Source: Trebonia kvetii (lineage in GTDB: Bacteria; Actinomycetota; Actinomycetes; Streptosporangiales; Streptosporangiaceae). Taken from it: DNA of 64,000 bases. Within the stretch, counting starts at the first letter, position 1, and every line of letters begins with the position of its first letter. The notes under the pieces were generated by a model. The model was given only the letters and a program-made list of their open reading frames with translations. It was not told where the DNA came from and did no database searches. Position numbers and translations under genes: made by a program. Positions 53,513-62,830 of the stretch are shown here, one piece after another. Location: positions 62,001-126,000 of the forward strand of contig NZ_RPFW01000006.1 of the NCBI RefSeq assembly GCF_007827045.1, given 5' to 3'.

Positions 53513-53628
53513 AGCGGCATAGTAGGCCGCTTCGCAGCCCCGAACCCATTGGGCGCGGCCATCGTCATCAGGAACTCTCTCTTCCTGCCATATGCGCAGG
53601 TGAGAGAGCTGACAAGGCGAAAGTGAGA

Positions 53629-53672
53629 GGTGGTCAGGGGCGGGGTCGAACCGCCGACCTTCCGCTTTTCAG
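53629..53672 (-). other. 3' half of a tRNA-Phe gene (attachment-site scar)
   Basis: On the minus strand the sequence reads anticodon loop CTGAAAA (anticodon GAA), half-stem GCGG, variable loop AAGGTC, T-arm GGCGG-TTCGACC-CCGCC, then acceptor strand CCTGACC and ACC. The matching 5' half is absent; different sequence begins at 53673. Integrases commonly recombine at this part of tRNA genes, leaving such a half gene at one end of an inserted element. Confidence 0.7.
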
Positions 53673-53790
53673 GTCAACCGCGCCAAGCGCTATGCGGACC
53701 TGCGAAAACGGATGTCACTGACGAGCGGAACCGCGCTAGGCGGAAGGTGCAACATCAAACCCTAGCAGGACCCAATACACCCGTCCGCCA
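53656..53790. repeat. Repeat unit R, copy A
   Basis: Starts GACCTTCCGCTTTTCAGGTC (inside the tRNA-like half) and runs through AAGCGCTATGCGGACCTG and GAGCGGAACCGCGCTAGGCG to GGTGCAACATC and beyond. ACCTTCCGC at 53657 and GCGGAAGGT at 53740 are inverted copies of each other. It shares its left part with copy C, its right part with D, and its centre-to-right part with B. Confidence 0.75.
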
Positions 53791-54359: not shown

Positions 54360-54470
54360 AAGCGCTGTGCGGACCTGAAGAGACGGATGTCGTTGACGAG
54401 CGGAACCGCGCCAGGCGGAAGGTGCAAAATCTGGGCTAACAGGACCGATACATCCCGTCCATCAGGCGGG
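54360..54470. repeat. Repeat unit R, copy B
   Basis: AAGCGCTGTGCGGACCTG to GGTGCAAAATCTGGGCTAAC matches the centre and right part of copy A, including GACGAGCGGAACCGCGCNAGGCGGAAGGTGC. The resemblance continues for about 50 bp (CAGGACC, CCCGTCC). The left part with the tRNA-like sequence is absent. Confidence 0.75.
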
Positions 54471-61071: not shown

Positions 61072-61136
61072 CGAGCAGAGCCCGTTGGTGCCACAGCGAT
61101 GCGGCGAGCGCCCGCGACCTAGCCGAACCCATGCCC

Positions 61137-61182
61137 GACCTTCCGCTTTCAGGTCAACCGCGCTAAGCGCTGTGCAGACCTG
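61137..61182. repeat. Repeat unit R, copy C (left part, split by IS110)
   Basis: GACCTTCCGCTTTCAGGTCA to GCTGTGCAGACCTG matches the left half of copy A, with one T fewer in the CTTTT run. It stops at the insertion point; its right half resumes at 62762 beyond the element. Confidence 0.8.
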
Positions 61183-61289
61183 ACCCTATGGGGGCCGGGC
61201 CGTTCGGGGGCCGGACCCCCGTTTCCCTGCTCAAGCCCGGTGAACGTAGTTTCCGGGTGTCAAACGAGTTCGGGGAAGGAGGCCCGGCT

Positions 61290-62288
61290 ATGTCTGTCTA
61301 CGTCGGAATCGACGTGCACCGCAAGCGCTGCCAGGTGGCGGTGATCAACGAGGGTGGCGAGGTGCTCGCCAACCGCAACGTGCCCAACGGCGTCAAGCCG
61401 ATCCTGTCGGTGATCGGCGGGCTGCCGGCGGGCACGCCGGCAGCGTACGAGGCCGCGTTCGGCTGGGGGTGGCTGCTGGAGCTGCTCGAAGGCTACGGCT
61501 TCGAGCCGCACATGGTGCACCCGCTGCAGTGCAAGGCGATCGCCTCGGCGCGGCTGAAGAACGACAAGGCCGGTGCCGCGATCCTCGCGCAGCTGCTGCG
61601 CGCCGGCCTGCTGCCGGAGGCATGGATCGCCCCGCCGGAGATCCGCCAGCTGCGGGCCATGCTGCGGCACCGGGCGCAGCTGGTGCGGCTGCGGACGCTG
61701 CTGCGCAACCGGATCCACGCGGTCCTGGCCGGTCACGGCCATGGCCGCCCGGCGGGCTGCTGGAGCGGCCCGGGCCGCCAGTGGCTTGCCTCACTGGAAC
61801 TGCCCGCCGTCTCCCGCGAGGTCATCGACGACGCCCTGGCGCTCATCGACGCCCTGCAGCAGCCCGTTGACCGGCTGGACCAGGAGGTACAGCAGCGGGC
61901 GAAGGCCGACCCGCGGGTCAAGATCCTGACGCAGCTGCCCGGCGTGGGCCCGTTCACCGCGCTGGTCCTGCTCGCCGAGATCGGCGACATCAGCCGGTTC
62001 GGGTCCGCCCGCAAGCTCGCGTCCTGGGCCGGGCTCACCCCCACGGTCCGCGGCAGCGACCGCACGATCCGCCACGGGCACATCTCCAAGCAGGGGCCGG
62101 CCTGGGTCCGGTGGGTGGCGTGCGAGGCCGCGCAGACCGCCAAGCGGCACCCGGACTTCGCCCCCGCCTACCAGGCGCTCGCCCGCCGCCGCGGCAAGAA
62201 GATCGCCACCACCGCGATCGCCCGCAAGCTCCTCACCCGCGTCTATCGCCTGCTCACCGACGCCAGCGGCGGCGGTGCGCCCAGCTAG
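61290..62288 (+). CDS. IS110-family transposase (DEDD RuvC-like plus Tnp_20)
   Basis: A 332-residue recombinase. The N-terminal RuvC-like domain has D8 in 'VYVGIDVHRKRCQVAV', E54 in 'AAYEAAFGWGW' and D92 in 'RLKNDKAGAAILAQLL'. The fourth expected acid, three residues later in the usual D-x-x-D, is G95. The C-terminal Tnp_20 domain has 'LTQLPGVGPFTALVLLAEIG', 'SWAGLTPTVRGSDRTIRHGH' with the candidate catalytic serine S256, and 'EAAQTAKRHPDFAPAYQAL'. AAGGAGG precedes the ATG at 61290. The D-to-G change may make it inactive. Confidence 0.93.
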   Translation: MSVYVGIDVHRKRCQVAVINEGGEVLANRNVPNGVKPILSVIGGLPAGTPAAYEAAFGWGWLLELLEGYGFEPHMVHPLQCKAIASARLKNDKAGAAILAQLLRAGLLPEAWIAPPEIRQLRAMLRHRAQLVRLRTLLRNRIHAVLAGHGHGRPAGCWSGPGRQWLASLELPAVSREVIDDALALIDALQQPVDRLDQEVQQRAKADPRVKILTQLPGVGPFTALVLLAEIGDISRFGSARKLASWAGLTPTVRGSDRTIRHGHISKQGPAWVRWVACEAAQTAKRHPDFAPAYQALARRRGKKIATTAIARKLLTRVYRLLTDASGGGAPS

Positions 62289-62761
62289 CGGGGAGGGCCG
62301 CCAGCCCCGGGCGAGCTCGCGTTTTCGCATGAGCCGGCCACGCCGCGCTCGATGACCTGACTGAGCAGCCCGGTCCCCGGATAACACGGTCATGGCGACC
62401 GCCCGGCCCTTAGGGCAGGAGCCGAATGGGTGCATGTGAGACCACTCCGACGACCAGCGCATCACCCCGGGGAACGCCCGGTAACCGGCCCCGCACACGA
62501 CAACCCAGCAGGAAACTCCACCCGTTCCTCGCTCCCGATCATCGGCCGCCGCACGGCAGCGTCAAGCTCGCTCGTCCTCGCCTGCGCCCTCGCAGCGGGC
62601 GCAGCCCTGCGGGCGCTCCAGCTTGACCCCCGCCCGGGCGACGGCACAAACCGGCAGCGACGAGGAAACGCGGCAACAGCAGTCCCATCCCAACCCGGCA
62701 ACCGCGACCAGGTCACCGGGTCAATTCACCACGGCCACTTGACAACTGCGACCCCTATGGG
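62289..62761 (+). other. Noncoding right end of the IS110 element, candidate bridge-RNA region
   Basis: About 470 nt between the transposase stop and the element's right boundary, with no protein-like frame but several GC-rich inverted segments (for example GCGCCCTCGCAGCGGGCGC near 62586-62604). In IS110 relatives a structured bridge RNA is encoded in a noncoding end, and in the IS1111 subgroup in the right end. That this region encodes one is inference from size and position only. Confidence 0.45.
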
Positions 62762-62830
62762 TGCGGAAACGGACGTCACTGACACGCGAAACCGCGCTAG
62801 GCGGAAGGTGCAAATTGCACGCTAGCAGGC
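62762..62830. repeat. Repeat unit R, copy D (right part)
   Basis: TGCGGAAACGGACGTCACTG to GCGCTAGGCGGAAGGTGCAA continues the repeat interrupted at 61182 and matches the right half of copy A. The last part GCTAGCAGG also corresponds. Confidence 0.8.

Follow-up and report, generated by a model that had tools for sequence, protein, structure and literature searches.

RNA-guided recombinases of the IS110 family are a recently discovered kind, and the element analysed here adds a well-resolved case to them. In elements of the IS1111 type, the noncoding region lies downstream of the transposase gene (PMC11187229, PMC11208160), and the guide for the top strand stands ahead of the guide for the bottom strand in the RNA (PMC11187229). 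In IS621, the "handshake" bases sit on the right target guide (RTG) and the right donor guide (RDG) (PMC11208158).

We have analysed an insertion sequence in a 64,000-nt stretch of a Trebonia kvetii contig, which is called the window below. Judging from the comparisons of sequences reported here, this is very probably an IS1111-type element with a bridge (seek) RNA encoded in its right end, used by its DEDD recombinase to choose both recombination partners. The longer noncoding region is found downstream of the transposase gene, and the RTG sits 5' of the left target guide (LTG), which is the IS1111 order. Subterminal inverted repeats (sTIRs), whose range in IS1111 is 7–17 bp, are exact over 12–14 bp in two relatives, L015 (14 bp) and L082, and have been eroded to 4 exact bp in the window copy. 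The assignment to the IS1111 type is made by such features and is not a formal group assignment.

The element and its target repeat

The core dinucleotide TG flanks the element on both sides (61181–61182 and 62762–62763), the left flank GCAGACCTG ending at 61182 and the right flank TGCGGAAACGG starting at 62762. Because the rejoined flanks, GCAGACCTGCGGAAACGG, closely match the unsplit repeat at 53694–53711, GCGGACCTGCGAAAACGG, the boundaries could be fixed to the common TG. The unsplit copy at 53.7 kb thus bears out the original prediction of an IS110 element at these positions with TG at both junctions, and the noncoding ends that it had put at about 107 bp before the transposase and about 470 bp after it measure 107 and 473 bp. 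The features are collected in Table 1.

Table 1. Coordinates of the element, its candidate RNA parts and its target sites, as positions of the window
Feature	Position	Strand	Basis or remark
Insertion sequence, IS1111-type (IS110 family)	61183..62761	+	comparison with unsplit repeat
Left end (LE), TG-ACCCTATGGGGGCCGGG...	61183..61289	+	kept in the left ends of relatives
DEDD recombinase, 332 aa	61290..62288	+	domain matches (Pfam, NCBIfam); alignment to IS621 and relatives
Conserved RNA region of ~145 nt with two internal loops (candidate bridge RNA)	62305..62449	+	conserved alignment, structure count
Right target guide (RTG) CGTTTTCGCA	62320..62329	+	complementary to top strand of TG and right target
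Inner hairpin of target-binding loop (GAGCCGGC...GCCGCGCTC)	62331..62350	+	alignment, structure count
Left target guide (LTG) GATGACCTGAC	62351..62361	+	left-target sense; reads across core into LE
Right donor guide (RDG) GGTCAT	62388..62393	+	complementary to LE TGACC; sequence match only
Left donor guide (LDG) GAATGGGTGC	62424..62433	+	in the sense of the right end ATGGG-TG, extended by the first right-target base
Optional hairpin outside the bridge RNA; its repeat is widespread in actinobacteria	62555..62633	+	
TTGACA, also kept close to the right end in relatives	62739..62744	+	
Left half of occupied target, GACCTG	61177..61182	+	
Right half of occupied target, TGCGGAAACG	62762..62771	+	
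Unoccupied target GACCTGCGAAAACG in unsplit repeat	53697..53710	+	

The 14-nt target GACCTGCGRAAACG has one perfect copy in the 9.25-Mb assembly, and this copy lies inside the unsplit repeat. The halves of the repeat split by the element are 86–92% identical to the copy at 53.6–53.8 kb, and a third copy (83%) is present at about 54360–54460. In the copy at 53.6 kb, 45 nt belong to the 3' end of tRNA-Phe. The att-like repeat occurs three times in the window (53620–53790, 54360–54460 and 61135–62829), and 8.6 kb past the window there is a tRNA-Phe gene that is intact (G000:C61:134626); this suggests tandem integrative elements at the tRNA-Phe gene, with the insertion sequence inserted in one att flank. 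A folded target resembling attC was considered and rejected, the repeat folding barely better than shuffled sequences (z -1.7); the target repeat is instead accounted for as flanking sequence of tRNA-Phe att sites. No Rfam family was matched by the element or the target repeat at E values up to 1.

The recombinase and the state of this copy

The recombinase matches Pfam DEDD_Tnp_IS110 (PF01548) and Transposase_20 (PF02371), both above the curated cut-offs, and the NCBIfam equivalog transpos_IS110 (NF033542, "RNA-guided transposase") with 246.8 bits (cut-off 140). The protein keeps D8, E54, D92 and S256, and the fourth acid of the DEDD tetrad has been replaced by Gly95. This incomplete tetrad is a trait of the window copy and not of its lineage: Gly stands at residue 95 in the window copy and in its sister copy L012, and Asp in the remaining relatives that align in this motif, except for rearranged pseudogenes. 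Gly95 aligns with D105 of IS621, an essential residue whose mutation abolishes recombination (PMC11208158), and the window recombinase, as read from its sequence, is probably catalytically dead. With the fourth DEDD acid lost, the element is probably immobile now, or else a related recombinase moved it in trans. The rest of the assembly yielded no intact clade-1 recombinase, and therefore the element is probably stranded, or depended on a relative in trans.

The window copy might, on another reading, be active as it is, the change from Asp to Gly being tolerated in its lineage. The reading frame is open apart from this change, and the window copy and L012 share Gly95 yet occupy different sites and carry different left guides, an observation that could also mean movement in trans. 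L012, however, is a pseudogene with a stop, and this, the Asp of the other relatives and the loss of recombination in the equivalent IS621 mutant make an active window copy rather unlikely.

The IS1111 motif GL-P----S(T)G is present with S-D in place of S/T-G, which is reported to be conserved among transposases of both IS110 and IS1111. This finger motif, GLTPTVRGSD, ends in S-D throughout clade 1 and mostly so in clade 2.

The candidate right-end RNA, its guides and their targets

The right end was compared among relatives at ~70% protein identity from Streptomyces, Kitasatospora and related genomes, together with close copies in the genome and genus of the window. Directly after the reading frame, all follow one scaffold, in which CCGGGYG-RGCTCG, 8–9 variable nt, CATGAG, a hairpin and GCTCGATGACCTGACTGAGCAGCCCGG are succeeded by CAC-GGTCATG, a stem and then CGAATGGGTGCATGTG. 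When the two-loop structure was counted on 16 sequences, 95.7% of cells were paired, and two-sided changes were found in five pairs; the structure slid by 1–3 columns gave 28–38% paired.

Downstream of this region stands a hairpin with the outer stem GTCAAGC...GCTTGAC and the conserved interior CGTTCGTCCTCG...CTCCGGGCGCTCCA, and its outer pairs covary in a compensated manner. Most clade-1 elements and several of clade 2 carry it, which might be taken to mean that a single large regulatory RNA fills the long right end, with the hairpin as a third functional guide loop. The hairpin is, however, absent from L013, L025, L082, L084, L086 and L089, and a covariance model found it in 29 of 296 genomes sampled from the class, with up to 14 copies in one; these copies, among them L113, L129 and L130–L159, adjoin IS110, IstB and unrelated genes. 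Because it is missing in several elements and found beside unrelated genes, we have dropped the hairpin from the guide RNA, and a single large RNA is very unlikely. The hairpin is a separate repeat that explains part of the unusual length of the right end; its window copy matched no Rfam family. As for the TTGACA near the right end, it is possibly the -35 element of a circle-junction promoter; by eye, no -10 element was recognised at the normal distance from it.

The candidate guides were examined within the smaller two-loop RNA. Reverse-complemented, the RTG CGTTTTCGCA gives TGCGAAAACG. The empty repeat has exactly this right half, and that of the occupied site is one wobble pair away. The LTG contains GACCTG, the same as the left flank, and hardly varies among clade-1 elements; in the sister copy L012 the left guide reads TCACCTGA and the flank CTCACCTGA. 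When both guides of the element were scored on the window's 7,360 TG sites, the empty repeat came out top with 12/13, followed by the rejoined occupied site with 11 and the next site with 10.

Right guides and right flanks differ among the relatives, for example in L015 (guide TGCGTAGTTG, right flank TGCGGAGTTG), L017 (guide TGGGCTTTTG, right flank TGGGCCTTTG) and L082 (guide TGCAGCGATG, right flank TGCAGCGATG). The guide registers had been spotted by eye before the tests, and all were then tested under a single rule. Over 16 guide types from related actinobacterial genomes, the RTG matched its own right flank to 66% and permuted flanks to 44%, and 0 of 100,000 permutations scored as high (P<1e-5), the related elements in this and the following permutation tests not being fully independent. 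The nine-nt guides of L020 and L086 fit their flanks better with one bulged base, and the right match of L025, L080 and L086 is poor unless a guide base is bulged. One Streptomyces genome (G417) carries five elements (L081, L088, L090, L091 and L092) at five sites with an identical right guide, which matches the right flanks at between 4 and 7 of 8 positions; these sites are a natural record of mismatch tolerance.

The second clade (L026–L030, L052, L067, L072 and L076–L078), at ~38–43% protein identity, has the layout of clade 1 with different guides. Its left guides match their own left flanks at a mean of 5.0 of 8 positions and the flanks of other elements at 2.5 (P 4.5e-5), and its right guides match their own right flanks at 5.2 versus 3.1 for others (permutation P 6e-4). 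The right guide of L028 matches at 8/8, and no right guide–flank match was found for L052 and L078 in this test. A search of 394 genomes of the class with a distant-clade protein, at the strict threshold of E 1e-100, gave one match. At the level of sequence and covariation, a correspondence of guide and target has been demonstrated in these elements.

The donor loop can be read in the same manner. Its 5' strand (RDG) and its 3' strand (LDG GAATGGGTGC) hardly vary within clade 1; the second clade combines the right end TTCAGGGATG with the guide GAAGGGATG, and in L067 the right end is TTCATGGATG and the guide GAATGGATG, the donor guide following the right end. The original prediction, a candidate bridge-RNA-guided recombinase with its RNA in the right end as in the IS1111 subgroup, is supported, and guide order, the position of the noncoding region and the sTIRs of relatives are of the IS1111 type. 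A conserved structure among relatives and loops matching both the target and the donor ends, which it had looked for, have both been found, with the addition that guides co-vary with flanks; as to extent, the candidate bridge RNA occupies only ~145 of the ~470 nt of the right end.

Two bases beyond the core appear to be linked to the guides as well. The LDG base after TG tracks the first right-target base, with G on both sides in L017, L022 and L111 and G nowhere else (Fisher P 0.0015), and the second LTG base after TG tracks the left end, with T on both sides in two elements (P 0.011), both being small-sample observations. The bottom-strand guides would therefore continue past the core into the partner that will be joined. 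If the cross-core bases do lie on these guides, the LTG reading into the left end and the LDG into the right target in a mirror image of IS621, IS1111-type elements may pair and exchange the other strand first; we put this forward tentatively, as a doubtful possibility for the lineage with the S-D finger.

That protein recognition alone finds the site, the conserved region being recombinase-binding DNA and the likeness to the flanks a leftover of captured target, fits the nearly constant left target TGACCTG of clade 1, as a fixed protein specificity would predict, but is most improbable when right guide and right flank co-vary over 16 guide types within one conserved scaffold, both sides co-vary in the distant clade, the stems are base-paired with two-sided changes and related elements have been proved RNA-guided by experiment (PMC11187229, PMC11208160).

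According to the RNA-guided reading, the right-end RNA would direct the DEDD recombinase to both recombination partners, with the RTG and LTG of the first loop reading the target, the RDG and LDG of the second loop reading the joined element ends and the core TG being common to all guides. By analogy with the described systems, we infer that the RNA is transcribed and bound by the recombinase in an RNP, and that strand exchange follows. The window copy would most likely have arrived at its site by this RNA-guided route.

Comparison with described systems

An actinobacterial IS1111-type system now has all its target and donor guides read, and with it comes a natural series of guide–target pairs, ~16 in Streptomyces, Kitasatospora and relatives and ~10 in the distant clade, which suffices to write targeting rules. 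Intact relatives (e.g., L015, L081 and L082) can be selected as high-GC bridge recombinases. A testable question is also raised, namely whether the handshake pairing of IS1111-type elements lies on the guides opposite to those of IS621.

With the IS1111-type elements for which a seekRNA has been described (ISEc11, ISKpn4, ISPa11 and ISPst6; PMC11187229), the element and its relatives share the downstream noncoding region, the guide order, the transposase size (330–350 aa), the subterminal inverted repeats, seen in the relatives, and a specific short target. They differ in the S-D finger that clade 1 and the majority of clade 2 have in place of S/T-G, and the window copy differs further in its eroded sTIR, the loss of the fourth DEDD acid and the unrelated hairpin in its right end. 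With IS621 of the IS110 group (PMC11208160, PMC11208158), the element shares a two-loop RNA with left and right guides for target and donor, a core dinucleotide within the pairing and a homologous RuvC-plus-Tnp recombinase (E 3e-16). In IS621, the RNA lies in the left end, the core is CT and the LTG precedes the RTG, whereas in the window element the RNA region lies in the right end, the core is TG and the RTG precedes the LTG; the cross-core bases, which sit on the RTG and RDG in IS621, would be carried by the bottom-strand guides in the window lineage.
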